From Clavelina lepadiformis (lineage: Eukaryota; Chordata; Ascidiacea; Aplousobranchia; Clavelinidae): a stretch of 64,000 nucleotides of DNA. The DNA lies in NCBI RefSeq assembly GCF_947623445.1, contig NC_135242.1, positions 23,002,001 through 23,066,000 on the forward strand, written 5' to 3'. A program made the position numbers and the translations under genes. Of this stretch, positions 12,359-38,206 are shown in pieces (the first letter of the stretch is position 1; each line of letters begins with the position of its first letter). A model generated the notes under the pieces. It saw only the letters and a list, made by a program, of their open reading frames with translations. It did not search any database and was not told the origin of the DNA.

Positions 12359-14224
12359 ATGGGATGTTTAGGTATTGTAACGTTGCAAATTGTGGTATGG
12401 ATGCTTTACCATTTATTTATCATAAACGTTATTGCTCCTTTGTTATGTAAGTTGAAGTTGAAACGCTTCGATGACTACAATGAGGAAATGAAAAAGGAAA
12501 GTCGACTCAGGTGGGTTTCCAGGATTAAAATTGATGTTTTAATTCGCGATGCTGTAAAAATATATAAGTAACAGAAACATTAAAATATGTTCAAACATGC
12601 TGCGTGTTTATTGTCGTAGCGTTGTCCAATGTATAATTTGAAAATTTGTTAAAGTGCATAAACTGGACACGTTTTATATCTTGTAAAATATTACTAATAA
12701 AGGAAAATTGAATTTGAAAGAGATCGCCGGTTTCTCTGAATCATAATTTTTAGCTTTGCTAGTGTATGGTGCTTGGGTTAGTATGCTAACCCATGCTTTG
12801 CTTGGGTTAGTACAGCCAATTAATGCTCATCAGCACGTAAATTTGAAAAATAGTTTTCAAATCCCAATTGCTCTTACTTCCCAAATGTTTTCCGCTTTTA
12901 AAATCTGATTTTAACTTCAAAATATTAACCTGAAACATACATTGCTGTCTTCAGGTTTGCATCTTTGTTGTATGTAGTCAAGACAGCATGCGGTGCCATG
13001 GTACTTTTGATTCTGCCTGGTGACGACACATACAGACTCTACAACCTCTGGTAAAGAAGTTGTTGATAAGACACAATATTTATGTGATATGATATCGGTG
13101 TGTTTGACGAATCAGAAACTTTAAATATTTGCTTTTAAAAAAATGCTTTTTGTATGTGTTTGCAGGGGTTACACTAATTTGACTCGATGTTTTCTTTTGA
13201 TGACTATTTGCTATTGCTTTGCGGGTAAATAGCTAACAATTTTAACAAGCTTAATATATTGTCGTTTCGTAATTCATAATGTTCTGTCTACAGTATTGAT
13301 AAGTTAATGTTTAACTTTCAACTTAAGAAATATTGTTTCAAATTATCGTTACAGATATTTTAATGCAATTAATATGGAAAGTCAGACGAAAACCATGGCA
13401 GAACCTTCATCACGTTTATATAATTACACTCGGAGGCTTTGTAATTTTGGCGAGTTTGTTTATAAATTGCTAAAATGTCTTGCATAGAGAACTTAAATAA
13501 GGTTTAAAGCTAACATTAACTTTTTTTCAGGTAAATGAAATTTTATTATCATCTGCAAGCTTTAAGTTAATGGCAGACGTTTTTATTCCGTTTTTGGAAC
13601 TTCTGTAAGCACTTTGTCATTTTTTTGATCAATTTTTAGAAAATATTTTTACCGCTTCAAGTTTTCTAACTCAATTTGTTAGTTGGGCAAAGTGCAGTGG
13701 CCCAGTATTTAACGATGCAGAATGTTTGTCTTATTTGTGATGTAAATTTACAGAGCTTTGCAAGAATTGAGAATGAATGACAACAAGACCTTTAGGCGAT
13801 CCATAATGACTTATTTTGCTGCGTACACTATCTTTGTAATTTTATTCATACCAATTCATTACTACCAATTTTATGTGAGAGAACGTTATTCGGAAACCAG
13901 AAAGTAAGTTACTTTACATGACATTGTGGTTCTGTATTTTTTCATTTTTGCTCGAAACAAAATGTGTTGTTTGCAGGCTAGATGAGGTGTCGTTGATCTA
14001 TTGCATGGTGGGCGGAATAGCTCTCGATCTTGCAAGTTTCTACTCGTTTTTGATAATCAGCCACATTTATTGGAAAGGTTCGTCAAAAAAGGAGGAAGTG
14101 GTCCAAAAAGAAAATGGAGGTAATCCTAAATATCTGTTGCTTAAGTTTAATCAAAACCGATTATAAAAAGTCTTTAATTACAGTATATTGTTTTAAAGAT
14201 AATCCTCAGAAGAAAGATAAATAA
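12359..14224 (+). CDS. TLC-domain membrane protein A (TLCD4/TMEM56-like)
   Basis: Multi-pass TLC-domain protein, family of TRAM, LAG1 and CLN8, most like vertebrate TLCD4 (TMEM56); likely acts in an internal membrane on lipid homeostasis (family knowledge, not shown here). Exons: 12359-12510, 12955-13050, 13166-13224, 13355-13449, 13531-13604, 13754-13903, 13977-14119, 14199-14224; together 264 residues, phases continuous throughout. Visible TLC signatures: the Trp ending exon 2 and the Cys-Phe-Ala-Gly-Asp junction of exons 3/4, the WQNLHH histidine pair in exon 4, VFIPFLELL in exon 5, IPIHYY in exon 6. Exon 4 has a GC donor (GCGAGT) instead of GT. The last exon gives ...DNPQKKDK, a C-terminal KKxx dilysine that would fit ER retrieval. 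If the last intron is retained, the frame instead runs to 14166. The function within the cell is inferred from family only. Confidence 0.85.
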
Positions 14225-15499
14225 GACTTAAATGATTTATACCACCTGATGACCTCACAGCGCAAGTGGACAGTTCTGGTAATTCACAATACGTGTTATC
14301 TCGATCTACAATACGTACCTTCTTACAATAACGATTTATTACAGCTTACTTGTTCAACTGCCATTAAAACTAACTTCAACATACATGTACCATGCTTATT
14401 TTCTTTTATGAAAGTATAAACTGCATTAGTGTGATATAAGATTGAAAAATTGACTTCATTTCATATAGGCAAAAGTAATTGGTCATTTTTAATCACATTA
14501 TTACACTGTTGTACATGTTGTTGTACCGTATACTAATAATACTGTTGTTGTTTTCAATCTCAATAGACCTTTGTTCCTTCTCAGAAAACTGACTAAATTG
14601 TACCTGCATTTTCTCTACATGCTTGGTTAAATTCTAACAAATAAATATTATTACAAACTTTACAGTTGAATTGTATCAACACAATATTATGTATGTCAAT
14701 AAAATGAAGTAGAAACCAAAGAAAGATGGTTCGATGCCGGCAGCTCATGTCTTATCTTTGGTTTTTAACATTTAAAAAACAAGTAAAAGTTATAATATTC
14801 AAGAAACGGCCTGACATTATCTTCTGAAAGGACCGTGGACAATTTGGCCAGAAGTTGGAAGATGTATTTTTTTAATTACATCAGCAACAATACAAGCAAT
14901 AACCTTTACCATTGAAATCATTTTAAAACACACGTTAAAATCGTTTTTTTAAATCAACACAGCAAAGGAAAACAAATTCCTCGATGTGCAGTTGGTTAAC
15001 ATAAAATTACTTCAAACATTAAATATTATCTTTTCGAAATAGCCTTGTCTCCAATTTTTTTGGCCTCAGTTAAATTTGCTGGTTCAGCAGAAAACAAAAC
15101 GCTGCATGAAATTTTTTTCTTTATTCAAGCGATCCAAATTAACAAACCTTCCTCTTATGTTTTGGATTGGGCATTTTATTTTGGAAATTACTGCAGACTT
15201 TTAATCCCAAAGAAAATTGCAGACTTGAAAAAGCAATAAAATTGCAGAAAGTTAAACATTGCGCCGATGCTAACAATAAAGCTACAAAATGCGAACAGGA
15301 GTTAACAATTAAAAACAGATGCTTACAACAATGTTAAGAAAATCCAAAAACAATTGCTCTGCAAACCGAAAACTAACTTTTGACAACGTGACTAAATTTT
15401 TGTAAGTTAAACTTTGATGTGTAACAGAAAAAGCTTCACATTTAAGTATACTGAGGAACTTTGATAGCAATAAGTTTGTTTGGATAGACATCAAAAGGG
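14225..15499. other. Intergenic stretch downstream of TLC gene A
   Basis: AT-rich sequence without recognisable exons on either strand. A 64-codon open frame at 15045-15239 has no family motif. The right edge runs into relic P1. Confidence 0.55.
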
Positions 15500-15960
15500 A
15501 AGATTTTCAAACTTAAAGATCAGGCCTCCACTCAGCTTAGAAAGTATAGAAACAAATGATTTGATAATGAGTTATGATCGTAGTTTCACAGTGAAATAGT
15601 TATACCGGATATACTATGCCATACATTGCATAAAAATGGAGAAACATTTACTAGAAGCTGCTGGAAAAAACAAAGACGAGGTTAGGTTAACGTAGGATAA
15701 GTCACAACAAAGTGTAAAATGCAATCAATACGGTTAGGTTTGTGCCATCAAAGGAAGCACATTAAAGGTTGCCTTAAAAACTTTATGCAACCAATTCAGT
15801 TACGACCAAACACTGAATACAGTTCACAATGGTAAATAGGTCTTAGCAAGTGTTACAAACATCATCGTGTTTACCTAATAAAAATAGAGGCTGGGATTAA
15901 GGGTGATACTTCTAAAGCTGACCCGGTGCGACTATATGTTTTTCAACTAAACTAGCGTTG
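15500..15960 (-). pseudogene. Relic P1 of a TLC gene (G-type, exons 5-6 only)
   Basis: On the minus strand about 15881-15960 aligns with exon 5 of gene G (32723-32796) and about 15511-15545 with the end of G exon 6, including the 'aggcctgatc' tail. Exons 1-4 and 7 are missing. The exon-5 piece carries an in-frame TAG where gene G has a Trp codon (unless the acceptor lies just after it). The same intron sequences as in P2 lie between (15780-15840 against 20340-20400). I take it as a decayed half-gene. Confidence 0.65.
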
Positions 15961-16008
15961 TATAATTACTGTACAAAAGTTTGCTTAATGGAGGCTAGGT
16001 CTGTTACA

Positions 16009-16075
16009 ATAGTTTGCAATAGTACAATACAATAGTACAATACAATAGTAATGCAATAGTAGTTTACAATAGTTG
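16009..16075. repeat. Short tandem repeat of CAATAGTA-type units
   Basis: Imperfect units of ACAATAGTACAATAC and shorter derivatives repeat four to five times. Lies between relic P1 and the leader of TLC gene B. Confidence 0.75.
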
Positions 16076-16481
16076 CATTGTTTGCCGTAGAAATTTGAAA
16101 TTTGGTGATTTAAGCGTATCATTTTCATTTACTTATTCACGCACCACTAACTCGACTAACAGTTCTCCTGTGTTCTCGTTTCGCGGTCAGCTGGTTTTCC
16201 GCACAGCCGGAACGTGTCGTAACAAGAAAAACTTCTAAAAATGTATCGCTTGTAGAAATACTTAATTTACACCAAATGCACTTTTTTTGTTTTACAATTT
16301 TGATATATAAAGGAAACCAGATATTTTTACTACTAACCTGTAAAAATCTGATCAGTTTACGACGTTTAGTTTTCGAGTAAATAACGATTGAAAATGTATG
16401 TACAGTGTCGGCCACACCTAGTTAAAATAGTAATGTCGCGCACCCGGTTTGGATAGGATTAGATTGGCGCAGTGCGAGGCC

Positions 16482-16526
16482 ATGGAGCAGTTGCTGCTGG
16501 CCACGGCGACGACATGTTTTCGCTGA
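16482..16526 (+). promoter_or_regulatory. Leader uORF of TLC gene B (14 codons)
   Basis: The leader shared with genes C, E and F begins with TTGGCGCAGTGCGAGGCC and an ATG. Here it encodes MEQLLLATATTCFR then TGA, ending 103 bases before the gene B start at 16630. Its first eight residues are identical in all four genes while the stop position differs. Whether it is translated is unknown. Confidence 0.5.
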
Positions 16527-16629
16527 TTCAATCAGCGCTTCTTGTGGCAAATTCTTCGCATTTTATTATTTAGGTTTGTACTCGATCCCCACAACCCAGA
16601 AAGCTTGTTAGTCTTGTAAAAATATAGTC

Positions 16630-18643
16630 ATGGGACGTTTAACTTCGGTGACGTTGCAAGTTGGGAGCTGGACGCTTTATCATTTATTTGTTACAAGCTT
16701 TATTGCTCCTTTGTTATGTAAGTTGACGTTGACCCGTTTTGACGACTACAATGAGGAAAGGAAAAAGGAAACTCAACTGAGGTAGGTTTTGTCAAATTAT
16801 AATTGATGGTTTCTTAATGAGCTGAAAACAGATAAAAAAATTTATAAATCGTAAAAAGAAAAATATTTGGAAACAAGCAAGGTATGTTTCATCGTAGCGT
16901 TGACGGATAGTATTTGAAACCACATTGTTTTCTGCAGGGCCGCGTCCATTTCGTTTCTAGTCCAGACTTTCGGTGTCATTACAATTGTCGTTAAGAACAG
17001 TGACAACATGTGGAAATCAGACTTGTAAAGAAGTTAAAAAATAATAGAAAATCTTTATGTGTTATATTAATGTTGTCCATGGAGAACTAGTTATTTTGAA
17101 CTTTTGCTTTTCAAAAAATCCTTAATTCTTTTCAGGGTTTTCTCCAATATTGATCAATGGATTCTTATCACTGTAATCAGCTATTGTTTCTCGGGTAGAT
17201 AACTATGTCTTTACAATAACTTAAAAGTAACTAATGCATTGCTGTTGTTGCTTTGTGATTAATAATTTTGTACACAATGTTGATGAAATCATTTTACTTG
17301 GTTGAGAATTGATATTTGAATGTTAATAAATTTTTATACAATTTTCATTAAACCAAATTTCTTGGTTAAAAACTTATTTGAAATTATTTTTACAGATATT
17401 ATAATGCAGTTGATTTGGAAAATGAAACGAAAACCATGGCAGTACCTTCATCACATTTATGCAATTGGAATCGGAGGTTTTGTAATTCTGGTGAATATTA
17501 CTTTAAAAGCTGCCATTATTATTCCGGAGTCAGTCGTGCGTTTAAAGTTTTATGTTTTCAGCTTTTTCCAGTTAACAACTTAAATATTATGACATATTCT
17601 ATTCTGAATTTAATTTTAATAACACATTAAATAGCTAAAATCACCTGTTCGCTTACCCATTCTAACCTAACCTAACCGCTTATTCTTAACAGGTTGCTTG
17701 ATCCACTTAGGGCGAAATAGTCACTCTCTGTGTTTAATGATGGAAGTTGCATCATATTCCATCCATTTCGCCCTAAGTGGATCATCATGGAACACAATGT
17801 ACTTAGTAAAACTTGTAGTCTTTAAAAACTAAAACAATTTAATACTTTCAGATAAATGAAACATATTTATCTTCTGCCAGCTTTAAATATACGACAGAAC
17901 TTTTTATCCCGATTTTGGAACTCCTGTAAGTTTTTTGGTCATTTCTTTGGAAAACGCAGCTTTGACTATTTTTTGGAAAATATTTTACCTTAAGTGATTT
18001 TGCAAAAATTTGTTACGTGAGCACAAAGTAATTCTGATTAAGCAATAACTTACTCAATATCAATTTCAGTCTAATTTACCAGGTTTACAATACTAATTGT
18101 AATTAGATTAATTAATAATGATTTTTATTATATTTATTATATTTGAATCATTTAATTATAATTCACTAAATTTCAGACTTTTACATGATTTAACAATAAA
18201 GGACAACGAAATCTTTCGGAGCTGGGCACTCATTTTATTTTTGTGTTACTATACCTTTCAAATTTTTTTTACAATAATCTATTACTATGGAATTTTGGTG
18301 AGAGATCGGAATCCGATAACCAGGAAGTAAGTTAAGTTTGAAAATTTTCCAGTAAAGCGTTCGATTGTCATCAATGCTGTTTGCACTGATTACGCGATAA
18401 TAATTTACGTCTTGTACGCTAGCCTACAACAATCAAAACAAATATATTAATTGCAGATTAGATAAGGATTCAACACTGAACTACGTTGGCGGCGGATTGG
18501 TGATTGAAGCTATAAATTTATACTCGTTTATAACTATTTGTTACATTTATTGGCAAAATCGGTCTCAAAATGATGAAACGGACAGTGAGGATAACGACGA
18601 AAGCGACAAAAGCGACAAAAGCGACGAAAGTGAATGGCTTTAA
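16630..18643 (+). CDS. TLC-domain membrane protein B with acidic tail
   Basis: Paralogue of A in the same cluster. Exons: 16630-16781, 16938-17024, 17136-17194, 17396-17490, 17852-17925, 18177-18326, 18457-18643; all phases match A, and exon sizes match except exon 2, which is 9 bases shorter. Keeps the WQYLHH histidine pair (exon 4), ELFIPILELLL (exon 5) and a final helix ending in YIYW. Unlike A, C and F it has no separate eighth exon: exon 7 runs directly into a tail of Asp/Glu/Ser/Lys repeats (units of Ser-Asp-Lys and Asp-Glu-Ser) ending EWL. No dilysine signal. Intron 4 carries a perfect 20-base hairpin repeat (17699-17784). Membrane lipid role inferred from family. Confidence 0.85.
17654..17740. 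repeat. Dispersed repeat with TAACCTAACCTAACC core
   Basis: CCCATTCTAACCTAACCTAACC, then about 40 bases on AAATAGTCACT. A diverged second copy lies in an ABCG intron at about 50680-50752 with the same two landmarks in the same order. The CCATTCTAACCTAACC part also occurs in relic D (about 23875), where it is probably shared by descent from B. Confidence 0.55.
17699..17784. mobile_element. Miniature hairpin element, perfect 20-base arms
   Basis: TGATCCACTTAGGGCGAAAT at 17699-17718 is repeated in exact reverse complement at 17765-17784, around a 46-base loop. It lies inside intron 4 of TLC gene B and is absent from the matching intron of relic D. No unambiguous target duplication is seen; a small MITE or solo inverted terminal repeat is likely, but an intronic hairpin of other origin is possible. 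Confidence 0.6.
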
Positions 18644-19754
18644 TTTTTCATTTTTAGGGGCTACTTTAGCGGTAGGAATAACTTAGATCGTTAACATTTC
18701 CCAACTTGAGCTTTATCTTGAGCTTTATCTTTTCAAATACAATTCCCGTGAAAAGGCGAATGAGATTTTTTTCACCTGACTGCGCGTTTTGTTTTGTATA
18801 TTTTTGTTTTGTTTTGTTTTTGTTTTAATAGTTTTGTTTAGGCCTATTCACAGGAGTCATCTCGTAATTTCGTAATTAAAATTTGTTTGAACTTCGGTCT
18901 TTCAACTGCGAATAAAGCAATTTCAACAGTATTTACGTTTCATTTATTATATGGAAGCAAATTGTAATATTAACGATTACTTGAAAACTAAAAATGACAA
19001 ATGGATTTACTTCTTCAGCACGCTTTGAAAACAGATTTGTTCCCGCATTTTCCGGTCATAGCTTCACTGATCTAATTCATAACAACAGGCACTAATGGGT
19101 CTTCTTCAGGGGTGCATTAGCTTTCCGGGACAATGGTATAATATCGACGCAGGTTAAAACTGCGGCTGTACTTAAGAAATGAAAAATAATAATCGCATAA
19201 TAATAATCGATAAAATAATTATCGGAAAAATAATAATATGAAAAGAGTCTCGATGGACGGACGACTGCGGATCACAGTAAATTCTTCGATTTTTTTATTA
19301 ATAAAAAACATTTGTAAAAACCTGTTTGGGAGAGTTTTAAATGACCACTCTACTTCCTTTGATGGCACAAACCTAACCGTAATGATTGCATTTTATTGTG
19401 AGACAAGAAATTTAGACAACCAGCTTTTAGAAGTGAATTCGTTTTAAATTTGCAAAATAAGATTTTCAGAAAAATAAAGTAAAAAGTGAAAAGAAAATCG
19501 ACGGTGTGCATTTGGATAAAATACAACCAGGTGACAATTTAAGTTCTAAACCGTGGATTCATGGCCTACAAAATCTTCCTTTTGCCTCCAGTCAGAATCG
19601 CAGTCCACGCTGAAAACAATAACTTTACATAGAACCCACAAAGCTGTTTCGTTCGATTATGCAATCTCAAGTACTTATATTCTATTCGATGTATGTAATA
19701 CATAAAGAAACATTCTCGTGTTTTTATGGTTGCATTATTTTCAGTCAACTCATT
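18644..19754. other. Flank between TLC gene B and relic P2
   Basis: No exon recognised. 18793-18843 is a TTTTG-type simple repeat and 19185-19240 an ATAATAATC-rich stretch. About 19250-19754 resembles the sequence downstream of gene G (about 31690-32010, e.g. TTTAGACAACCA and CGACGGTGT landmarks), so the duplication that created P2 included several hundred bases of 3' flank. Confidence 0.55.
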
Positions 19755-20700
19755 TTATTTTAACAATGTGCAGGCTTTAGAAAAGCAGTAAACATGCACA
19801 GGTTCAAACGATGCAACAACGTCAATATAGAAGAGCACCTCAAAATACTTTCTGCAAATCGGTAAACAACGTTTTACTGCGTATGGTTAAATAATAGTGG
19901 GCTTGCTAACAATTAACAGTACAAACTAAAATGGTTACAATCAAGAGTGCTGATTCACATCAAAAGCCATTTTTAATAATATACAGTTAACAAAATGTAA
20001 ATATTTTCTAGATACATTTAACTTCCTTATAAAAAAAGACTTACAGAGTTAAAAACAAATTACGGATCAGGCCCCTCACTTAACTTAAGCAAGTGAAGAC
20101 ACATGTGAGAGTATAATGGGATGAGCAAAATTTGAAAGGTAAAATCCACAACAAAACCTACAAGTTTAGGTTTCCAATGCAGAATGTCGTCGTCCAGTTT
20201 CAACCGATGCAACATAATTCTGAAATAAAATATCAAGCAAAATTATGATAAACAATAATATAGTATAATACAACAAAAGTGTTTCAATACATAAACCTAA
20301 CCAGTTCTGAAGTTAAACTTGCCTTAAAGGCTTTGTGCAACCAATTCATTTATGACCAAACACGGAATACATTGCACAATGGTAAATAGGTATAATGCAA
20401 GAAAATTTACAAACGTTACTATTTACCTAAGCTAAAAAAGGACTGGATCTAACAGCGACACTTCTAAAACTGACCCGTTGCGAATATGTTTTTCACATAA
20501 ACAAATGTTGTGTAATTTCTGTACAAAAGTTTGCTTAAAGGATTCTACATTGTAAAAGTGACAAACTTTACAACATATACCTGCCAGAGGTAGTGCAGAT
20601 ACAATTACATACGTTTAAAAAATTGAACGAAAGATGATTTAAACAACATAATGTTCAAAAGTCTTTTCGAAACAAAATATCATTAAAAATGTATAACATG
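19755..20700 (-). pseudogene. Relic P2 of a TLC gene (G-type, exons 4-7)
   Basis: Minus-strand pieces align with gene G: exon 4 about 20585-20690, exon 5 about 20430-20505, exon 6 20064-20219 (starts RIMLHRLKLDDDILHW), exon 7 19755-19851. Exons 1-3 are absent, the exon-4 acceptor AG is lost, exon 5 has small deletions, and the exon-6 donor is weakened (GTAATT). Exon 4 keeps a GC-type donor (GCAGGT). It is divergently placed against gene C, whose leader starts about 400 bases away, and mirrors P3 beside gene E. Confidence 0.75.
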
Positions 20701-21136
20701 TGTTTTTATAAAGCTAATATTTTTTTCAAAAGGGCGTTAGAATATAAATCAAGCGGCAGAAAAAGTGCCAAAGATTTTGCAGTTTTTTTCCTGGAGCGTA
20801 CACTCTGAAAATGATTGACTATTTTTTATAACTATGGTCATGACGGGATCTTGACCTCCCAATGCAATAAGCATTTCCGAAATGCTATTTCAGAAATTTA
20901 TTATTTAGATCTAATTTCAACCGTCTATTAGGATATGCAAGAAATATCTTTTCTTTTTGAAAAGATCATAAAAGCAAACCGATTTGGCAATTATATTTTG
21001 TTTTTTATATCAATAAATTATGGTGAATGATTTAATTTTAGTCGTTTATTTCTCAATTATATTGCATCTATATCAAGCGAATCTCCATCAGGCATGGAGC
21101 AGTTGTAGAAGTTCATAAAGTACTTTATGGGAATCT

Positions 21137-21143
21137 TATAAAA
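21137..21143 (+). promoter_or_regulatory. TATA box upstream of TLC gene C
   Basis: TATAAAA followed by AGCTCTTTATTAAAACC, about 240 bases before the gene C start. The same element in the same context occurs upstream of E (27272-27278, minus) and F (28729-28735), which supports it being a retained core promoter. Confidence 0.55.
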
Positions 21144-21226
21144 AGCTCTTTATTAAAACCTGATGCTTTTTGGCGCATATTTGCTCATTTTACCGAATCT
21201 TGATTAGATTGGCGCAGTGCGAGGCC

Positions 21227-21376
21227 ATGGAACAGTTGCTGCTGGCCACGGCGATGACATTGCTTCAGGGCTTGATCCAATCTACGCTTTTTGCGGCAAA
21301 TTCTTTGCTTTTCATTGATTACAGTTTCTCTCGATCGTTACAACCTAGAAAGCATGTTAGTCTTGTAGGAATCTGA
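21227..21376 (+). promoter_or_regulatory. Leader uORF of TLC gene C (49 codons)
   Basis: Begins MEQLLLATAMTLLQGL and stays open for 49 codons plus stop, ending in TGA at 21374-21376, two bases before the gene C ATG at 21379. In B, E and F the frame closes after 13-14 codons. The first half is hydrophobic. It could be a translated upstream ORF, a remnant of an older N-terminus, or simply conserved leader sequence after recent duplication. Confidence 0.5.
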
Positions 21377-21378
21377 AC

Positions 21379-23216
21379 ATGGAGGGTTTAGTTTCATTTA
21401 CGTTGGAAATTGTGGGATGGATGCTTTGCAACATTCTCGAAATGAACTTCGTCACTGCTTTGTTAAGCAGGTTGATGTTGAAACGCTTCGATAATTACAA
21501 TGAAGAAAAGAAAAAGGAACTTCTAGTCAGGTAAATTTCCAAGTATAAACTCTATGGTTTTTTAATTTGAAAAATGAACTGCTGTAAAAATTTATTGGAG
21601 AAGGATCGTCAGATGCTCTGGATACGAGTTGTTAGCTTTTTTAATATAAAATTATATCACAGCTACTTATTAGTGTGAAGTTGCCAACTACAATAACATT
21701 TCATAAATCATTTTCGTGACCTGTTGTTCTTATCAGCATATTTTCAGAATTACTCTAATTTGGTTGAGTAGCTTTATTTTTTGTAATAGCATGTAAACTC
21801 GAAACACAATTGCTGTTTGCAGGTTTACATCATTGTTGTTTGTACTCAAGGTAGCATACAGTACAATTGTGTTTTTCATGCTGACTGATCACAAGATACG
21901 CAAATCGCACAATATCTGGTAAAAAATTTGTTGATATTAAGAAATATTTATGTGATTCGACGTTGGCATGTTCGGCGAAGTAATTTTTTTTTTGTATTTG
22001 CCTTTCAAGAAATTTCAATTATGTATTATTTTGCAGGGGTTACTACGATTTTTATAAATGGATTCTTGTCATGATTGTCAGTTATTGCTTTGCTGGTAAA
22101 TATTTAAATCTTTTCAATAACTTAAAAGTAATTAATGCATTGCCGTTGTTGCTTTGTAATTAATAATTTTGTACACAATGTTGATGAAATTACTTTTCTT
22201 AAAAAATTAATATTTCCAATTATCCTTACAGATATTCTAATACATTTAATATGGAAAGTGAAACGAAAACCATGGCAGTACCTTCATCACATTTATGGAA
22301 TTGGATTCGGAAGTTTTGTAATTTTGGTTAGTATTATGTAAAAGCTGAATGCAATGCATTAAGGAAAACGTGAAGGCTTTAAATTTAAAACTATTTAATT
22401 TTTTCAGTTGAATGCAACTTTGTTATCCTCTGCCAGCTTCAACTTGATGCCAGACGTTTTTGCGCCATTTACAGGACTTTTGTAAGGTTTATTGCCTTTA
22501 GAACAACGCAGCTATGAAAAATGTTTTAAAAATTGTTTTGAGATTGACTGATTTTTACAATTATTTATGCGAGTGCAAATAAATATGATTATGTAATGAC
22601 TTAAATTTTAACATAAATTTTCATCTAAGTTACATGCTTTATGTTTAATGTTTGTTCTTGCTCTGCTTTAAATTTTAGAGCATTGATTGGTTTTGGAATA
22701 AATGAAGACAAATCTTATTGGGAAGTTACAGTGGTAGGTTTAGGTGCATACATTGTGTTTCAAGCTTGTTCCATACCCATCCATTACTGCCGATTTTCCT
22801 TCAAAGAACATGAGTAAGTTACATTTCAGAAGTTTCCAGTTTTACGTTCAATTTTTTGTGCTCTCCAAGACATCATACAACGTACAAACATCAAAACAGA
22901 AACTCTATTTTTTCAGTCTAGATGACGAATCATTAAGCAATTACACTATGTATGGAATGCTTCTTGATTTTGCAATTTTCTACTCGTTTGTAACAATCTG
23001 TTTGATTTATTGGATAAATTTTACAGTAAAGGAGGAAAACGCCAGAAAGAAAAGCGAAGGTAATTATTGGGGTCTGTCACAATGGTTTCATTCCAAGTCT
23101 ATCTTCAGCGTTTAGAATAATTTTAAGCTTTACCTGTTCTAGGTTTGAGGGTCAAGGCTCGAGATTACGGGCTATTCATCTCCTCTAAAGGTAAATCCCA
23201 GCAGACGAAAGAATGA
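21379..23216 (+). CDS. TLC-domain membrane protein C
   Basis: Paralogue in the C/E/F subgroup. Exons: 21379-21530, 21823-21918, 22037-22095, 22232-22326, 22408-22481, 22679-22813, 22917-23059, and a small last exon 23191-23216. Starts MEGLVSFTLEIVGWML with an RFDNYNEE motif ending exon 1. Exon 4 has WQYLHH, exon 5 PDVFAPFTGLL, exon 6 IPIHYC; exon 6 is 15 bases shorter than in A and B, as in E and F. The last exon gives a short charged tail GKSQQTKE; if the last intron is kept the frame ends at 23115 instead. No dilysine at the C-terminus. Forms the left arm of an inverted duplication with E. Lipid-related membrane role is inferred from the TLC family. Confidence 0.85.
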
Positions 23217-23654: not shown

Positions 23655-24400
23655 TCTCGCTTGTCATGGTTGTCAGCTATTGCTTTGCTGGTAGATAACT
23701 AAGTCTTTTCAATATTTAAAAGTAATTAATGCATTGCTATTGTTGCTTTGTGATTAATAATTTTGTACAAATTTTTGACGAAATCATTTTACTTGGTTTA
23801 GAAATCCTACTACTTTTTGAACTACTCTAGTTTCAAAAAGATATTAAATAGCAAAAATTACCTTTTCATATATCCATTCTAACCTAACCTAACCTTATCC
23901 TTAGCGGGATTCTGCCAGCGTTAAGTTTACGACAGATGTTTTATGCCGTTTATGGAACTCCTGTAAGCATTTTTTGTAGTTTCTTAGGAAAACGCAGCTT
24001 TGACTAATGTTTGGAAATTATCTTACTGCAACTGATTTTGCAACTATTTGTTACATGAGAACAAAGTAATTGTTATTAAGTAATAACTTATTTATTAAAT
24101 TTAAAATTTCATCTACTTCACATGGTCCATAATACTAAATGTAATTAAATTATGTAATTATAATTTTTATTATATTTATTATATTTAAATTAATTAAATA
24201 TAACTCACTAAATTTCAGAAATGTATTAATTACAGACTCGATGAGGAACCAACACTGTACTACATTGTCAGCGGATCGGTTATTTATTTGGTAAATTTAT
24301 AATCGTCTGTATTTATTTGTTACATTTATTGGAAAAATCGGCGTAAAAAGAGGAAACAGCAACAACAAAGGAGAAATATCCACATTTTTATTTTTAAGGT
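23655..24400 (+). pseudogene. Relic D of a TLC gene (B-type)
   Basis: Contains the end of exon 3 (about 23660-23691, CTATTGCTTTGCTG then GTAGAT), the end of exon 5 (about 23909-23961) and most of exon 7 (from about 24237, LDEEPTLYY). Exons 1, 2, 4 and 6 are missing. Intron sequence between them matches gene B (for example 24000-24120 against 17950-18060). The exon-7 piece has a stop soon after Val-Asn-Leu. It lies in the spacer of the inverted duplication. Confidence 0.75.
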
Positions 24401-24973: not shown

Positions 24974-27043
24974 TCATTCGTCTTTAGCCCCCTTTAACAA
25001 TGGACCTGGAGCCAGGAGCCTGGAATTTCAAATCTGGAACAGGTAACGGTTGAAACGATTCCAAACGCTAAAGATTCGCTTGAAATTAAAACTATCATGA
25101 TACCAATATTTACCTTGGGATTCCTTTTTGGGGCTGTTCTCCTTGGTAGACGAATTTATGTAATAAATGTAACAAATTACTACAAATGAGTAGAAAGTTG
25201 AACAATCAAGAACCATTCCGCCGAAAATGTAACAGATTATTGATTCCTCATCAAGGCTGCACAACAATACAATTCTGCTTTGATATTTGTACAGTGTACC
25301 CTACTAGAAACTTTTATACAGTGTACTTGGTGAGCAAAAAACTGAACGTAGAACGGGAAATTTGTGAAATATGTTACTCAAAAGCTCTCGCTTTAAATTG
25401 TAACTTACTCGTGTTCTTTGAAGAAAAATTGATAGTAATTGCTGGGTATGGAACTAGCTTGAAATATAACATAAGCACCCAAAGAAACGAATGTGTATCC
25501 CCGAAAATATTTGTTGTCGTTCATTCCAAAACCAATGAAAGCTCTAAAATTTAAACCAAATCAAGAAGAAACACAAGAGTGAGAAGGATGTAAATAAAAG
25601 TCATTACATAATCATATTGACATTCCCCTCGCATAAGTAATTGTACAAATCAGTCAATGTGAAGAGTTTAAAAAATTCGTCAAAGAGGCGTTGTTCAGAC
25701 AAAAGAACTTACAACAGTCCAGTAAAAGGCGCAAAAACGTCTGGCGTCAAGTTGAAGCTGGCAGAGGATAAGAAAGTTATATTTATCTGAAAAAATTGAA
25801 TTGGATTTAATTTTAAGCCTAAACCGTTTTCCTTAATGCATTGCATTTAGCTTTCACATAATATTCACCAGAATTACAAAACCTCCGATTCCAATTCCAT
25901 AAATGTGATGAAGGTACTGCCATGGTTTTCTTTTCACCTTCCATATTAACTGCATTAGAATATCTGTAAGAATAATTTGAAAAATTACTTCTTAAAGAAG
26001 AAAATATCTCATCAAAATTGTGTATAAAATTATTAATCACAAAGCAACAACGGCAATGCATTAAATGCATCGTTGAAAAGATTTCGCCATTTACCAGCCA
26101 AGCAATAGCTGACAATCATGACAAGAATCCGCTGATAAAAATGGAAGTAACCCCTGCAAAAGAATACTAATTGAATTTTCTTGAAATGCAAATATCAGAA
26201 CAATTTACTTCACCGAACATGCCAACACCATATCACATAAATATTGGTTAATATTATCAACTTTTTTACCAGAGGTTGTGTGATTCGCGTAGCTTGTCAT
26301 CAGTCAGAATGAAAAATGCAATGATACTGTATGCTATCTTGAGTACATGCAAGAATGATGTAAACCTGCAGACAGCAATTGTATTTTCTAAACTGCACAG
26401 AATAATCTTATAAAATTAAATTAGCAATTTAAAGCGGAAATAAGTTGGGCAATAGGAACAATTGGGATTGAAAAATTCTTTCGAGTTTACATGCTAATAC
26501 AAAAAATAAAGCTACTTATCCAAATTAAAATACTTCTGAAAACATGGGATATGAACAGAAGGTCTCGAAAATGATTAAGGAAATCTTAGTCTAGTTAGCA
26601 GCTTCAGTTATAGTAACGGCGATGTAAGTTGATATTAACAAAGCTAACAATAATTTCAGAGAAACTGACGATCCTTGCCCAATTTGTTTTTTACCATTAA
26701 TCATACGATTAGAAGAGATACAACATGTGCAGTGTGCATTATAAAGTATTTTAAATATATACATGTTTTCAACGCTACGATGAGATTTCTTCGGGTTATT
26801 TAAAAATATTTTTCTTTGTCCGACGTATAAATTTTCACAGCATTTTCTCCTACTCATTAAACAACCATATATTTTATTCTGGGAAACTTACTTGAGCAGA
26901 ACTTCCTTTTTCCTTTCCTCATTGTAATTATCGAAGCGTTCAAACATCAACCTGCTTAACAAAGGAGAGACGTAGTTCATTTCGAGAATATTGCAAAGAA
27001 TCCATGCCATAATTTCCAACGTGACTGAAACTAAACCCTCCAT
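24974..27043 (-). CDS. TLC-domain membrane protein E
   Basis: Closest to C and F, on the opposite strand. Exons in transcript order: 26892-27043, 26270-26365, 26095-26153, 25869-25963, 25713-25786, 25409-25543, 25114-25256, and a tiny last exon near 24982-24974 whose acceptor is uncertain. Exon sizes equal those of C exactly. Starts MEGLVSVTLEIMAWIL; exon 4 WKVKRKPWQYLHH; exon 5 PDVFAPFTGLL; exon 7 ends KKESQ. If the last intron is not removed, the frame runs on to 25028. No disabling change seen in the core seven exons. It is the right arm of the inverted duplication and faces gene C tail to tail. Confidence 0.82.
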
Positions 27044-27146
27044 GTTCAGATTCCTACAAGACTGACAAGCTTTGTGGGGATCGAGTACAAACTTACTTAA
27101 TAAAAAGCAAAGAATTTGCCGCAAAAAACGCAGATTGGATCAAGCC

Positions 27147-27188
27147 CTAAAGCAATGTCATCGCCGTGGCCAGCAGCAACTGTTCCAT
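27147..27188 (-). promoter_or_regulatory. Leader uORF of TLC gene E (13 codons)
   Basis: Encodes MEQLLLATAMTLL then TAG, followed by 103 bases before the gene E start at 27043. Same start context (GCGAGGCCATGG) as in B, C and F. Confidence 0.5.
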
Positions 27189-27271
27189 GGCCTCGCACTG
27201 CGCCAATCTAATCAAGATTCGGTAAAATGAGCAAATATGCGCCAAAAAGCATCAGGTTTTATTAAAAAGCT

Positions 27272-27699: not shown

Positions 27700-28620
27700 A
27701 TTTTTAATGATATTTGGTTTCGAAAAGATTTTTGAACATTATGTTGCTTCAATCATCGTTCATTCATTTTTTAAACGTTTGTAATTGTATTTGCACTACC
27801 TCAGGCAAGTATATGTTGTAAAGTTTGTCACAATTACAATGTAGCCTCTATTAAGCAAACGTTGGATCTAAAAATACACAACGCTTGTTTAGGTGAAAAA
27901 CATGTAGTCGCACCGCGCCTTAGAGGCATCACTCTTAAACGCAGCCCTTATTTTGCTTAGGTAAATACGGTGACGCTTAAACTTGCTTGCAATATGTCAA
28001 TTTACCATTGTACATTGTATTCGGTTCCACGACAATTAACCGTGGGAAATTGACCGCGAACAAACTCACCGGGGACAACTGACCGGGGGACAACTGACCG
28101 TGACGTAAATTTACCTAGAACCAACTGACCTGAAATCATATTATTACTTAAATCATATAATTTGAATAAACAACAATGCTAATTTGCGTAAAAAATAAAA
28201 ATAAAATGCGTAGCGGTTGATTTGTGTCGGCGGCCAATTTGTTGCCGGTCAGTTGACCACGACCAATTGTCGCTGGTGAATTTGTTCACGGTCAATTGAC
28301 GTGATCCCATTGTATTCAGTGTTTGATCATAAATGAAATGATTGCATAAAGTTTTTAAGGCAAGGTTAACTTCAGAACTGGTTAGGTTTATGTATTGAAA
28401 CACTTTTATTGTATTATACTATATTATTATTTGTCATAATTTTACTTGATATTTTATTTCAGATTTATGTTGCATTGGTTGAAACTGTACGACGACATTC
28501 TGCATTGGACACCTAAACTTGTAGCTTCTTTTGTGGATTTTACCTTTCAAATTTTGCTAATCCCATTATACTCTCACCTGGTTCTTTATTTGTTTAAGTT
28601 AAGTGAGGGGCCTGATCCGT
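27700..28620 (+). pseudogene. Relic P3 of a TLC gene (G-type, exons 4-6)
   Basis: Plus-strand pieces align with gene G exon 4 (about 27725-27812, ending with a GC donor GCAAGT), exon 5 (about 27893-27959) and exon 6 (28463-28618, MLHWLKLYDDILHW, donor GTAAGT). Exons 1-3 and 7 are absent. The exon-5 piece has an in-frame TAG at the position seen in P1. An inserted element (28023-28307) splits the intron between exons 5 and 6. Confidence 0.75.
28023..28307. mobile_element. MITE with 10-base target duplication (Mutator-like?)
   Basis: 285 bases flanked by identical CATTGTATTC (28013-28022 and 28308-28317). Ends are related inverted repeats: GGTTCCACGACAATTAACCG against GGATCACGTCAATTGACCG, followed by inward repeats of ACAACTGACC type. 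The uninterrupted site is visible in the paralogous introns near 20360-20385, 15805-15830 and, more diverged, 32650. A 9-10 base duplication fits Mutator-like elements; the family name is inference. No coding capacity. Confidence 0.85.
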
Positions 28621-28735: not shown

Positions 28736-28818
28736 GCTCTTTTATAAAACCTTATGCTTGTTTGGCGCATATTTGCTCATTTTAACGAATCTTGATTAGA
28801 TTGGCGCAATGCGAGGCC

Positions 28819-28860
28819 ATGGAACAGTTGCTGCTGGCCACGGTGATGACATTCCTTTAG
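28819..28860 (+). promoter_or_regulatory. Leader uORF of TLC gene F (13 codons)
   Basis: Encodes MEQLLLATVMTFL then TAG, 110 bases before the gene F ATG at 28971. Differs from the E version by only a few bases. Confidence 0.5.
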
Positions 28861-28970
28861 GGCTTGATCCAATCTACGCTTTTTGTGGCAAATTCTTTGC
28901 TTCTTCTTAAGTACATTTGTACTCGATCGCTACAACCCAGAAAGCTTGTTAGTGTTGCACGAAATTGAAC

Positions 28971-31026
28971 ATGGAACGTGCAACTTTAATCATGTTGGAA
29001 ATTGTGGGATGGATTCTTTGCAATCTCATCGAGATGAACTTCGTCACTCCGTTGTTAAGCAGGTTGATGTTGCAACACTTCGATAGTTACAATGAGGAAA
29101 GGAAAAAGGAAATTCTACTCAAGTAAGTTTCCCAGAATAAAATTTATGGTTGCTTAATGAATAGGAAAAGTGCTGTGAGAATTTATACGTCGGAAAAAGA
29201 AAAATATTTTTTAATAACCCGAAGAAATCTCATCGTAGCGTTGAAAACATGTATATATTTAAAATACGTTATAATGCACACTGCACATGTTGTATCTCTT
29301 CTAATCATAACATTAAAGGTAAAAAACAAATTGTGCAAGGATCGTTAGTTTCTCTGAAATTATTGTTAGCTTTGTTAATATCAACTTACATCGCCGTTAC
29401 TATAACTGAAGCTGCTAACTAGAATAAGATTTCCTTCATCATTTTCGTGACCTGCTATTCATATCCCCATGATTTCAGAAGTATTTTAATTTGGATAAGT
29501 AGCATTATGTTTTTTGTATTAGCAAGTAAACTCGTAATACAATTTTTCTAATCCTAATCGTTCTTATTCCTCAAAGTTCTTTCCGTTTTGGGAAATCTAA
29601 TTTAATTTTAACAAAAATTGCTGTGCAGTTTTTAAAACATGCTGCCAATATCAACAACATTGCTGTCTGCAGGTTTAAATCATTGTTGTACTTCCTCAAG
29701 ATAGCATATAGTATCATTGCATTTTTGATTCTGACTGATGACAAGATACGCGAATCGATCAACCACTGGTATGAAATTTGATATTTGATTTGATTTGAGA
29801 AAAATTTTAAGCAACATTCATGTGATAGGTATTGGCATGTAATTTTCCTTATAACAAATTTCAATTATGTATCCTTTTGCAGGAGTTACTTAGATTTTTA
29901 TGAATGGATTCTTGTCATGATTGTAAGCTATTCCTTGGCTGGTAAATAATTAAATCTTTTCAGTAGCATTAAAAGTAATTAATGCATTACAGTTGCTGCT
30001 TTGTGATTAATATTTTTGTACACAATTTTGAAATCATTTTTAAGAATTATTTGAAATTATTCTCACAGATATTCTAACGCATTTATTTTGGAGGATGAAA
30101 CGAGAACCATGGCAGTATCTTCATCACATTTACGGAATTGTAATCGGAGGTTTTGTAATTCTGGTTAGTATTATCTTATGCTGATAGTATATAATGCTAT
30201 AATGCAATAAGGGAAGTAAAAGCTAAGTAAAGCAATTTCATTTTTTCAGATGAATGAAACTTTTTTATCCTCTGTCAGCTTCAACTTGATGCCACACGTT
30301 TTTGCGCCATTTACAGGACTTTTGTAAGCTCTTTTGCCTTTTGAACAACGCCGCTTTGACGAGAATTTCTTTTAACAGTTGCTAATTTTAATTACTTATG
30401 CCAGTGGAGTGTAAATATGATTGTGTAATAACTTTTAGCTTTTGACTTACTTTCTCATCTAATTTACATGGCTGTGGTTTAAATTTTAGAGCTTATAATG
30501 ATTTAAGACTAAATGAAGACAAATATTTTCGGGGATACGCAAATATTTGTTTAGCTGCTTACGTTGTGTCTCAAGCTTGTTCCATACCCAATCATTACTA
30601 CCGATTGCTTTTGAGAGGACAAGAGTAAGTTATATTTCAGAACTTTCCAGTTCTGCGTTCATTTTTGTTTATGCTCACCAAGTACACGGTGTGTACGTTT
30701 CCAGTATTTTATAATATACACAGTACAAATATCAAAACAGAATCGTATTAACAGAATATTTGCATTTGTATTTGCAGACTAGATGATAAATTTTTGATGT
30801 ATTACATCGCCGGCGGAACGGCTCTTGATTTTGCCAGTTTCTACTCGTTTGTAATAATCTGTAACATTTATTGGAGAAAACAGGAAAGCCAAGGTAATTA
30901 TTGGAGTCTGTTACAGTATTTTCTTAAGTTCTGTTATTGATTCATTAGCTTCTGAAATACTTTTGAGCTTTTCCTGTTTCAAGCTATTTCACCTTTTAAG
31001 GTAAGAAGAAGAACAAAGACGATTGA
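28971..31026 (+). CDS. TLC-domain membrane protein F
   Basis: Third member of the C/E/F subgroup, a direct rather than inverted copy. Exons: 28971-29122, 29673-29768, 29883-29941, 30069-30163, 30250-30323, 30490-30624, 30778-30893, 31001-31026. Starts MERATLIMLEIVGWIL. Exon 4 WQYLHH, exon 5 PHVFAPFTGLL (His for the Asp of C and E), exon 6 IPNHYY, exon 7 ends WRKQESQ, last exon GKKKNKDD. Exon 7 is 27 bases shorter than in C and E because the charged stretch after the last helix is reduced. All phases are intact. Flanking leader and TATA box are shared with C and E. Confidence 0.85.
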
Positions 31027-32022: not shown

Positions 32023-34005
32023 TTAATTTTCGGACAAATACTTTTTATCCCAACGATAAGTGCAGACTTTAGAAAACCAGATAATATTCACAACATCAAA
32101 CATCGGTACGATGCTAAGCAAACTGAGCTCCCCAAAAGATACTCTGAAAATCGGTAAAAACAAAGTTTTGTTAGGATATGGTCAAATGTTTGTACGTTTG
32201 TTTATATACGGACTTAGAAACAGGCCGGGTAAGCGTTGTTTACTTATTCTGATTTATTTTAAATGCAATATTTATTTATATAATGTTAACAAAAAGTGAG
32301 TTTTAGTAAATATCCTTTTTTTATTCAACGAAAAAAATTAAACTATCTTACAGATCAGTATCAGGCCTTTCCATCAGTTCCAACAAGTAAAGAACCAGGT
32401 GATAGTATAATGGGATGAGCAAAATTCGGAAGATAAAATCCACAACAGAAGCTACAAGTTTAAGTGTCCAATGCAGAATGTCATCGTCCAGTTTCAACCG
32501 ATGCATCATAATTCTTAAGTAAAGTAATAAATAAAATTATAATAAATAATCATATAGTAAGCTACATCAAAAATATGACAACACAGTAATTAAATCAGAT
32601 TTAAGCTCAAGAAAGCCATTAAAAGCTCAAGTCAACCAATTACTTATGACCAAGAACACTAAATACATGGCAAAAAGTAAATAGACCTAACAGCATTTAT
32701 TAACAAACGTCTCGGTGCTTACCTAAGAAAAAATATAGGGCTAGGGGTGAGGGTGACAATCCTTAAGCTGACTGGGTAAGACCATTTAGTCTTCACCTAA
32801 ATAAGTGTAACTTCTGATTGAAATATTGCTTAATGGAGAGTACTATTTAATTATGAAAAACTTCACAACATATACTTGCCAGAGGTACAGCTAATACAAT
32901 TACAAAAACATAGAAATAATGAATAAACGATGATGGATACAGCTTTATGTTCCATTTTTTCCGATACACAAGATCTGTAAAAATACATTAAAGATACTGT
33001 TATTAAAAAATCTTTAGGAATATTGGTTAGAAAATAAAGTCAACAGCATCAAACATGCTCAAGTATTTGCAGATCTTTCTTGTACCTGCAAAAGTATTTC
33101 CCATTGCCAAAGCACAATTCCATCCAAAATATGGATAGCACCTATAACACATGACAGTAAAAAGAAGGTTGCTAAAACCTATCCAATACTTCATATAACT
33201 CAGAAAAACAGCCTGTCACATAAACAAAATATTTTTAATGAATCGTGCCTCACAATCAAATCTTTTCTTACCAAGGCTTGTCTCTGCCTGTGGTGTTATC
33301 GCCCTGAATACAGGAAACAGTGATACAACTCGCAAAGGTTGCAAACAGGAAAAAGGCCACCCTACAAGTAAAAATATTTATCATATACATGTTTAGGGTT
33401 GTTAATGACAGGGTTTATGATTGAAACCTGACAAACTAAAATATTTCGCAACTTTTGAGTGACAATTGTCTGAAGAAATTACTTAAAATCATAAAACAAA
33501 ATCTAGATAAAAATCAATTTCTTTGTCATATTCATCGAAAATTTACAATTAAAAAAGAGCTTTAAGAAATTATTCTTTGCTCTTACTAAACCTCTATTAA
33601 AAATCTTTTGGTTTTAACAAAAAATGGCTAAAGAATTGGTGTTTTACAATAGTGATTGTTAAAATAAAATTAAGCATTTTCTCTATTTGCAAATAGTTGC
33701 ATCACAAACAAATACCACCACAATATTGAATAACGTCATACTGCAAAGCAAGTGTTTTAAGAAAGCGATTATTATAATTATTTTTGCTTTATTTATTAGA
33801 ATTATGATTAGCAGAGCAAGTTTTCAGAAATAACGTCCAGTTTTCCAACTCACTCGAGATTAAGTTCTTTCTTCTTCCTCTGAGATAAATTTTCGAATTT
33901 CTTCAAGTCTAATAGACAAAACCTATGTGCAATTTGTTCCACAATAAGCATATTGAAAAATAAACCAACTACATGAGCCCAATGGTTTGATTGTATTATA
34001 TCCAT
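32023..34005 (-). CDS. TLC-domain membrane protein G, divergent, lacks the His pair
   Basis: Intact seven-exon gene: 33854-34005, 33272-33361, 33086-33141, 32880-32974, 32723-32796, 32352-32513, 32023-32143; 249 residues with continuous phase. Same exon plan as A-F but much diverged: starts MDIIQSNHWAHVVGLFFNML, exon 3 gives GWNCALAMGNTFAG (close to gene H), exon 6 DDDILHW, exon 7 ends RWDKKYLSEN. In exon 4 the family's LHH motif is replaced by SSFIHYF, so one histidine of the pair is lost, and the exon-4 donor is GC (GCAAGT). Relics P1, P2 and P3 derive from this type. Could be a TLC protein without catalytic activity; the sequence cannot settle that. Confidence 0.8.
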
Positions 34006-36260: not shown

Positions 36261-38206
36261 TTAACTTTTCGACTTCTCTTTTTTATCAAAATAATTCCAG
36301 TAAATCTTGAAAATTTTTATGAACCAATGAATATTTAAAATATCAAGAGCCACAGCGCCGGTAAACCACCAGTAAAATGTGACGTAATCTAACCTAGAAA
36401 CAAAGGTGTATGCCTGTCACAAACATCAAATTTTTGTCACAAAGAAACTTTCAGCAATGGAAATTCCAAATGATACAGAATTCTTAAGAACGAGATTTAC
36501 CAGACGTGAAAAACAAAGCGTAGTCAGTCTCACGGCTTGTCAGTATGTTGAATGTTTTCAAAACTAACAAATAGGAAGAAATTGTATACAGACTCACTGT
36601 CTTTTTCCCGAAAACGGTTCCGCCATATAAAAACTGTAGTAATGAAAAGGAATGAGAAATATTCGAAAAATAGCGAAGGCCAGAAAGTTCAGGAGAGCAG
36701 CCACCAGATAAATCTTGTTGTTATGCATTCCTAAATGATGCATAGAGATTCTAAACGAAAACAAAACATGTACCGTAAAGCGGTTATCACAGACATAGAG
36801 GCATGACAACAACTATAGAGAACTTGTAATACACACAGAACCAATAATACACTAGAAATGATATTAAACTACTATCGATCAACAGAAAATGAACAAGATT
36901 TCAAAAAAGTTATCAAAGAACATTTCTTTATTCGTTAAAGCATGTGCAAAAATTTCTGCTCACATAATCTCTAAGAAGGGTGTAGAAACTTCTGACATAA
37001 TTCTCAAAGTTGTAAAGTATAAAATGGTTCTATTTGCCTGGAACGAAAGTATTATGTCAACATTTTTTAACGTACAAATTACGTAATACACGGAAGGTTT
37101 AAAATAGTTTTTAAAAGAAAGAAACAACCTAAATATACCAAAAAGGCAAATCCTCCTGTTCCAACAGCGTAAACGTGATGAACGTACATTAATGGGTCTA
37201 TCTTTTGTTTCCACTTTAAATGCATTAAAATATCTGTGAAAATTCTTTGAGTTATTGTTACTTTAAAACTATTTCAAGAGAGTCCAATCCAGGCATATTT
37301 TTATGCTGCGCATGAGATATCTGGTACACACGTCAGATTATATACATACAGACTACAGAGTATTTTGCCGGGGGATTCGGATTTAGTTATACCTGCGAAG
37401 GAATATCCGACAGCCATGGCTAGGTTCCATTGCGCCAGCTTTGAATGACCCCTTTCGCAATTAAAAAGATAAGACAAACCGGTATTAGCGAAAGCAAATA
37501 TATCAGAGCTGTAGTTAACAAAATAATGCAAAACTTTACACACAAAACGTCGGTGTAACTTTCCTTACCACAGCTTATCTCGATGTATGCTGCTTTCATC
37601 AATCGCAAGCAGGTAAAAACTGACAGAGCTCGCACAGGATGCATACAGAATAGTACTTGCTCTGCAAAAAGAAGTTTATTTGTCAAATATTTGACGATAA
37701 TCTAGCAAACCCTTTAAAGTTGAAGCACACAAACAGTGTTATTGCTTATGTTGTATGCTCGATTAGCCTGAGCGAGAGCAACATTTTTTTTGACTCCTTG
37801 AGTAAGACTTCGCTGATCTGTTATCCGGGCTTCACACTGCCAATCCACTTGAAATAATGTCCAAGTTATATTAATATTTGCGATAAAATTTTGGCCATAA
37901 CTGCTAAACCGCTAAATCTTCATACAAATCCTTTCTCTAATATGTTTACCGACAACTACTCTTTGGTTTAAAACCAACTTGTTTTTGGACTTGCGCTCAC
38001 TTTAAACAGGTCAGGCCAGGTCAGGGAGTTATTTTACAAACCCACCTGAGTTTTAAATCCTTTTTCCTGTCTTCAGCGAGGCTATCAAATTGTCTCAACG
38101 TCATTCGACACAGCATAGGAGCGATGAAGGTCATGACGAAAATAATGACGAATAGACATCCCATGACTTGTAGAATTACAGATAACATATACAAGAAATA
38201 CCACAT
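36261..38206 (-). CDS. TLCD4-like: TLC-domain membrane protein H, the most TLCD4-like copy
   Basis: Exons: 38046-38206, 37569-37661, 37393-37451, 37139-37233, 36964-37037, 36598-36750, 36261-36393; phases all continuous, about 255 residues. Compared with vertebrate TLCD4/TMEM56 as I recall it, the match is recognisable along the whole TLC core: LWG.S.L...N.A.A.GY...D at exons 2-4, WK then VHH, SEVSTPFLEIM (TLCD4 has AELSSPF), PFHYYSFYM, ALDILNIHWFIKI near the end. The protein ends KKEKSKS, lysine rich but not a strict KKxx. Start codon 38206 is the first ATG in the exon; 38164 is an alternative nearer the start position of the other copies. H is probably closest to the ancestral gene from which the cluster expanded. 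Confidence 0.85.

Follow-up and report, generated by a model that had tools for sequence, protein, structure and literature searches.

A cluster of TLCD4-type gene homologs with altered active sites in the ascidian Clavelina lepadiformis, part of a dispersed family

The stretch of the Clavelina lepadiformis genome analyzed here (RefSeq assembly GCF_947623445.1, contig NC_135242.1, forward-strand positions 23,002,001 to 23,066,000; hereafter the window, 64,000 nucleotides, with position 1 as its first letter) carries, between positions 12359 and 38206, seven intact spliced genes (A, B, C, E, F, G, and H) and four relics. Comparison of their translations shows that the genes encode homologs of TLCD4-type TLC proteins; A, B, C, and F lie on the plus strand, and E, G, and H on the minus strand. 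An earlier note on this DNA had counted seven genes and four relics in 26 kb, and this count is borne out by the gene models and by a search for exon pieces outside the masked exons. The models were built by hand, and the preservation of the reading frame partly guided the choice of splice sites; a spliced aligner, with H as the query against the H region only, returned the identical H model minus its stop codon. Active-site residues are listed below in TLCD1 numbering (D98, H117 and H118, E145, R183), where R183 is a provisional number that we equate with CLN8 R204.

12359..14224, plus strand: gene A, 8 exons, 269 amino acids; active site D, HH, D (for E145), V (for R183); C-terminal tail KKDK; intron 4 donor gcgagt.
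16630..18643, plus strand: gene B, 7 exons, 267 amino acids; active site D, HH, E, Q; acidic Ser-Asp-Lys tail.
21379..23216, plus strand: gene C, 8 exons, 259 amino acids; active site D, HH, D, Q.
24984..27043, minus strand: gene E, 7 exons plus an uncertain last exon of 8 bases, 253 amino acids; active site D, HH, D, Q.
28971..31026, plus strand: gene F, 8 exons, 250 amino acids; active site D, HH, H (for E145), Q; tail KKKNKDD.
32023..34005, minus strand: gene G, 7 exons, 249 amino acids; second catalytic His replaced by Tyr and Glu aligned to Leu, with the Arg retained; intron 4 donor gcaagt.
36261..38206, minus strand: gene H, 7 exons, 255 amino acids; D, HH, E, and R kept, Tyr at the H54 equivalent; the sole Pfam TLC match among the seven.

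The genes share an exon frame: exons 4 and 5 measure 95 and 74 bases in all seven, and the cumulative phases after exons 1 to 6 are 2, 2, 1, 0, 2, and 2 throughout (the exons of H are 161, 93, 59, 95, 74, 153, and 133 bases long). The common lengths and phases rule out chance similarity of the exons, and the shared frame, along with homology to H, bears out the common origin proposed in the earlier note. The seven-exon frame described there stands for the phases and for exons 4 and 5, but exactly seven exons occur only in B, G, and H; a short extra last exon is present in A (41 bases), C (26), E (8), and F (26), and that of E is broken compared with those of C and F. Every intron of the seven genes closes with AG, and all but two start with GT; the exceptions are both fourth introns, with gcgagt in A and gcaagt in G. 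In A, a GT in frame can be seen by eye 9 bases before this donor, and its use would give an alternative exon 4 of 86 bases. Protein identity among cluster members ranges from 19% to 69%, and long inverted repeats connect the C, E, and F regions. The C-terminal tails differ from copy to copy, as had been claimed, and two of the seven, those of A (KKDK) and F (KNKDD), fit the KKXX/KXKXX pattern, which we take to be a signal for retrieval to the endoplasmic reticulum (ER).

Membership in the TLC family is direct for H only. The Pfam TLC model (TRAM_LAG1_CLN8, PF03798; curated cut-off 24.6 bits) matches H at 1.1e-19 (71.5 bits), and this is one protein of seven, contrary to the expectation in the earlier note that all of them would match. 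The assignment of A, B, C, E, F, and G to the TLC proteins is made because they are homologous to H and on the strength of profile comparison, not of a Pfam match: blastp connects each to H at 1e-55 to 4e-28 (in a small sequence set), and in hhalign the A/B/C/E/F profile meets H with a probability of 100 and the pair of TLCD4 genes on chromosome 5 (described below) with a probability of 96.9 (E 1.3e-10; reversed control 0.3). A profile of the G branch meets the chromosome 5 TLCD4 genes at 99.6, with all reversed controls below 1. A lack of TLC matches, which the earlier note had named as grounds for abandoning its claim, is thus what Pfam alone gives for six proteins, but not what the more sensitive hhalign and blastp comparisons give. 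A sequence search of the PDB produced no match at E <= 1. For H, the nearest TLC kind is TLCD4 (shuffle z 23.5 vs 6.6 for TLCD1, with provisional reference sequences); the same test favors TLCD4 for A, C, E, and F, and does not favor it for B (2.7 vs 3.6) or G (7.5 vs 7.7).

The residues of the active site are distributed unevenly across the cluster. In A, B, C, E, and F, the Asp and both His are invariant (5/5), while the Arg is lost in all five (V, Q, Q, Q, and Q, respectively) and the Glu in four (D, E, D, D, and H). Across the seven window genes, D98 is retained in all, and the His-His pair in six, G having His-Tyr; a His at the H54 position occurs in E alone, and Glu and Arg are found together only in H, which keeps every one of these residues but H54.

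Searches of the rest of the genome (with H, E, G, and later copies as queries, followed by spliced alignment; only the best candidates were scored) show that the cluster belongs to a family scattered over several chromosomes. Three TLCD4 genes lie on chromosome 5, at 13.71, 13.79, and 13.80 Mb, with an intact active site where read: two of them (a and b) have H54, D98, H117, H118, E145, and R183, and the third shows D, HH, E, and R in its translation (its N-terminal part is unread). Exon 5 measures 74 bases in all three, and exon 3 measures 59 bases both in the two that were read further and in six of the seven window genes. Additional copies occur on chromosome 9 (two at 15.35 Mb; two and one partial at 14.93 Mb), chromosome 3 (two at 24.27-24.28 Mb), and chromosome 4 (one at 24.04 Mb, repeated at 24.28 Mb), for a total of 19 places including the seven in the window, several of them read only in part. 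The two chromosome 4 stretches, 236 kb apart and with one TLCD4-like copy each, are 99.95% identical over 9553 bases; either they were duplicated very recently or the repeat is an artefact of the assembly. At candidate loci on chromosomes 7 and 2, none of four queries detected a TLCD4-like gene that passed the threshold. The Pfam cut-off is passed by four of seven other copies, namely chromosome 5 a and b (4e-33 and 2.9e-29, far above H), the minus-strand copy at 15.35 Mb on chromosome 9, and the chromosome 4 copy; the plus-strand copy at 15.35 Mb, the chromosome 3 copy, and the 14.93 Mb copy fall below it.

We reconstructed a tree (LG+C20, 18 rows) with one of the two chromosome 4 copies, from exon 4 onward, and with exon 3 absent from one of the chromosome 3 copies; the partial 14.93 Mb copy and the third chromosome 5 copy were omitted, human TLCD4 (provisional letters) was the one vertebrate sequence, and TLCD1 formed a long branch. 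Human TLCD4 groups with the chromosome 5 pair (support 93/91, slightly under the firm-support mark of the tree tool), and both H and A to G fall outside this group. H has no firm grouping, and its candidacy as the TLCD4 ortholog was rejected on this placement and on the finding of the chromosome 5 genes; the TLCD4 likeness claimed for H in the earlier note therefore holds for the kind of TLC protein, but the chromosome 5 genes are the better orthologs. The A+B+C+E+F group (98/100) and the C+E+F group (100/100) were both recovered. The tree did not resolve A and B as a pair, so that, among the derived groups A/B, C/E/F, and G proposed earlier, C/E/F is recovered and A/B is not. G joins the copies from chromosome 4, chromosome 3, and 14.93 Mb on chromosome 9 (98/95; 90/86 with the 15.35 Mb copies included), and its sequence places it in a branch represented on chromosomes 3, 4, and 9. 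With E, the sole member of its branch to serve as a whole-genome query, the best match outside both the window and that branch came only at 0.009, and genes of the A/B/C/E/F type seem to be confined to the cluster. The proposed local expansion is accordingly retained for A, B, C, E, and F, whose close relatives were found only here, but not for G.

The G branch is further marked by its GC-AG intron 4, which starts with GCAAGT in G (window positions 32880-32974) and in all seven distinct dispersed copies read (8/8); the three chromosome 5 genes and H, B, C, E, and F have GT at this place, and the gcgagt start in A possibly arose independently. The His pair is broken in all eight of G and its kin in which it was read (the chromosome 4 duplicates being taken as a single copy), the dispersed copies reading HN, HF, HG, HG, HF, and HL, and YH on chromosome 4. 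The Arg is lost in two 14.93 Mb copies, and D98 is replaced by Val in the 15.35 Mb minus-strand copy.

The Pfam search of long open frames also located other TLC genes in clusters: four frames of 363-378 amino acids within 19 kb on chromosome 4 (8.68-8.70 Mb), which we take to be CerS-like; four places on chromosome 8 (7.2-12.4 Mb), presumably TLCD1/2-like; and four 255-amino-acid frames on chromosome 9 (13.66-14.11 Mb). Four frames among these other TLC genes, one of them from the CerS-like group, were translated.

Relics were sought by matching exon pieces to the window after all real exons had been masked, and each preserves fragments of two or three exons out of seven:

15197..15935, minus strand: relic 1, G-type exon 5 and 7 pieces, 74% and 77% identical to gene G exons (blastn).
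19737..20656, minus strand: relic 2, G-type exon 4, 6, and 7 pieces; exon 6 is 89% identical to G, and the protein match has a stop codon close to its end.
23660..24357, plus strand: relic 3, exon 3, 5, and 7 pieces of an A/B/C/E/F-type gene, with stop codons; probably gene D of the earlier note.
27734..28594, plus strand: relic 4, G-type exon 4 and 6 pieces; exon 6 91% to G, the matched stretch free of stops.

Because the G-type relics at 15.2-15.9, 19.7-20.7, and 27.7-28.6 kb stand head to head with B, C, and E, respectively, we infer that a divergent gene pair was duplicated as one unit, once in inverted orientation, which also fits the inverted repeats. The units would have spread through tandem and inverted duplication, with the G-type neighbor lost at three places. 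A second type of conserved feature, a leader block, lies upstream of the genes and has four matches genome-wide:

16457..16559, plus strand: leader block of B, 86% to the C block.
21202..21308, plus strand: leader block of C, 107 bases, upstream of C.
27107..27213, minus strand: leader block of E, 97% to the C block.
28794..28900, plus strand: leader block of F, 95% to the C block.

Between C and E or F, the block is 95-97% identical, whereas the exons are ~80% identical, and its probable role is that of a promoter or 5′ leader element. We rejected the idea that a short upstream reading frame accounts for this conservation, as the stop in C is placed differently from that in E and F (by eye). 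A diverged version of the block was seen by eye at A. Elsewhere in the window, positions 3670-8733 (plus strand) hold leucine-rich repeats and, after them, a TIR match that is weak (0.00085) and does not reach the cut-off; they look like a Toll-like receptor gene in pieces; positions 48764-51147 (plus strand) hold exons of an ABC-2 transporter, presumably ABCG-like; and positions 59173-59772 (minus strand) hold a xanthine/uracil permease exon.

Codon models were fitted to alignment columns in which no row had a gap (A/B/C/E/F: 241 or 229; chromosome 5: 147; four G-branch copies, G itself excluded: 235), and P values were computed by hand from the printed likelihoods. The ratio omega (dN/dS) for A/B/C/E/F is 1.04 under M0, 0.996 without the tails, and 1.05 in IQ-TREE, whereas maximum likelihood puts the chromosome 5 trio at 0.19 and the G-branch copies at 0.60. 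Constraint is concentrated in exons 4 and 5, which hold the His-His pair (omega 0.51 vs 1.2 elsewhere). Strongly constrained sites (~14%) include D98, H117, and, less surely, H118 (posteriors 0.73, 0.66, and 0.46), and the posterior is 0.0 at the Glu and Arg positions. On the A/B/C/E/F tree, ~29 nonsense changes would be expected under neutrality, and the models contain none.

The interpretation we favor, at a probability of roughly 0.6, is that H is a working acyltransferase, that A, B, C, E, and F are TLC proteins of low activity or altered specificity, and that G is a pseudoenzyme; these roles are predicted from the sequences, that of H probably being correct. Several results weigh against it. 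None of A, B, C, E, F, and G matches Pfam TLC at E <= 1, and the A/B/C/E/F profile finds no other TLC kind among those tried (hhalign probability 19.2 for the CerS-like frames, 0.2 for the chromosome 8 frames). Crude hydropathy yields from 4 to 7 peaks, and the TLCD1 and TLCD4 reference letters are provisional, although those of TLCD1 agree with the residues named in PMC11838012. Counting-method omega for A/B/C/E/F is 0.62-0.87 (8/10 pairs, B-C and B-F left out), lower than in the codon models; by the same method, two chromosome 5 genes come out at 0.32, the chromosome 3 pair at 0.36, and the 14.93 Mb pair at 0.55, so that both methods agree on the order and differ in the size of the gap. Gene conversion among the cluster genes, which would distort the codon models, is likely, because C-E identity declines toward the 3′ end in exons and introns alike. 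Exon and intron identities (%) are 81.3/79.4 for C-E, 81.5/81.6 for E-F, 79.8/78.0 for C-F, 67.8/62.8 for A-B, 69.9/62.9 for A-C, and 65.5/66.1 for B-E, with 89% in intron 1 of E vs F; given these six pairs and the conversion pattern, the argument that exons evolve faster than introns was rejected as proof of positive selection. Finally, an omega near 1 could reflect a recent loss of function, a reading disfavored by the absence of any of the ~29 expected nonsense changes, but the frame guided the choice of splice sites.

That last possibility extends to the proposal that the cluster is decaying, with A, B, C, E, and F young or near pseudogenes about to join the relics. The overall omega of ~1, the four relics within the same 26 kb, and the broken last exon of E are what it would predict, but five models free of in-frame stops are not: simulated E copies at 0.15 changes per site were stop-free in only 2% of cases. 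The needed splice sites are also present, exons 4 and 5 are constrained, and the leader block is conserved, and we consider decay improbable, the least credible of the explanations weighed here. It is also unlikely, if a little less so, that A, B, C, E, and F are ordinary, fully active, redundant TLCD4-type acyltransferases in which the Glu and Arg changes are tolerated. The invariant HH and D and the constraint on exons 4 and 5 agree with full activity, but the Arg is gone from 5/5 and the Glu from 4/5, and codon models give an omega five times as high as for the chromosome 5 trio. In the known enzymes, TLCD1 E145K almost abolished the acyl-thiamine product in cells, and the conserved CLN8 Arg is a disease site (PMC11838012).

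A tentative idea, to which we give somewhat more weight than to either of these and which is compatible with the favored interpretation, is that recurrent positive selection diversifies A, B, C, E, and F outside the catalytic exon. With the tails included, 18% of sites fall at omega 2.6 (M2a vs M1a, twice the log-likelihood difference 10.8, p ~0.005), and exons 6-8 of B-E, one of many pairwise subsets, give 1.99 (interval 1.15-3.77); however, p rises to ~0.09 without the badly alignable tails and is ~0.10 for A, C, E, and F alone, and the likely gene conversion counts against this idea too.

Acyltransferase activity was not demonstrated for TLCD1 and CLN8 until 2025, in a study that covers H117, D98, and the E145K change of TLCD1 and names changes at CLN8 H139 (H139Y) and R204 that occur in Batten disease (PMC11838012). 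The cluster resembles these enzymes in the Asp and His-His core of A, B, C, E, F, and H, but among the seven the Glu is found only in B and H and the Arg only in G and H. In the ceramide synthase CerS6, the acyl chain is attached to the first His of the His211/His212 pair, and the enzyme cannot do without the second either (PMC11919693); these enzymes share the TLC superfamily and the double-His mechanism with the cluster, yet the profile match to the CerS-like frames of this genome is weak (hhalign probability <=19.2). TLCD4 (TMEM56), for which location, cytosolic tail, and contact with CerS2 are described (PMC13147617), is the nearest kind for H, and its chromosome 5 genes share the 74-base exon 5 with all seven window genes; H differs from it in lacking the H54 equivalent, A, B, C, E, and F in lacking the Arg, and G in lacking the second His. 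A gene family expansion study of the bivalve Pinna lists in a table "TLC domain-containing protein 4-like" with the number 4 (PMC13093298); Pinna is a mollusc, and the available parts of that study contain no cluster or active-site analysis. Literature searches by paired terms returned nothing joining TLC domain with ascidian, TMEM56 with tunicate, or TRAM-LAG1-CLN8 with Ciona, which is not proof of absence; by title, no tunicate study appeared among the matches listed for TLCD4, and none about TLC among those on Clavelina lepadiformis gene families.

Under the favored interpretation, the cluster proteins would be membrane proteins of the ER/Golgi. By analogy with TLCD1 and CerS6, H would use acyl-CoA to load the first His of the HH pair, and the acyl group would then pass to a lipid acceptor. 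The TLC tunnel of A, B, C, E, and F would most likely continue to accommodate an acyl chain or acyl-CoA, with transfer that is poor or directed to a different acceptor. G is most likely non-catalytic and, if it acts, may be a lipid-binding or partner subunit, as has been proposed for TLCD4 (TMEM56) with CerS2.

The role of each TLC active-site residue is still being worked out, and here evolution has separated them: one branch has His-His and Asp without the Arg and mostly without the Glu, and the other mostly has the Arg without the His pair. The cluster proteins are natural variants in which each active-site residue could be tested, and a codon-model dN/dS near 1 with open frames is unusual for a lipid-enzyme family. 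More speculatively, and we regard this as a long shot, a housekeeping lipid acyltransferase may have given rise to a rapidly diversifying tunicate family, in which a fixed His-His-Asp core is combined with free acceptor-side residues and a free C-terminal half to serve different lipid partners, and another branch would consist of obligate pseudoenzymes with an inherited GC-AG intron. If this were true, the members could be enzymes or lipid-binding receptors for membrane adaptation, defensive lipids, or self-recognition.

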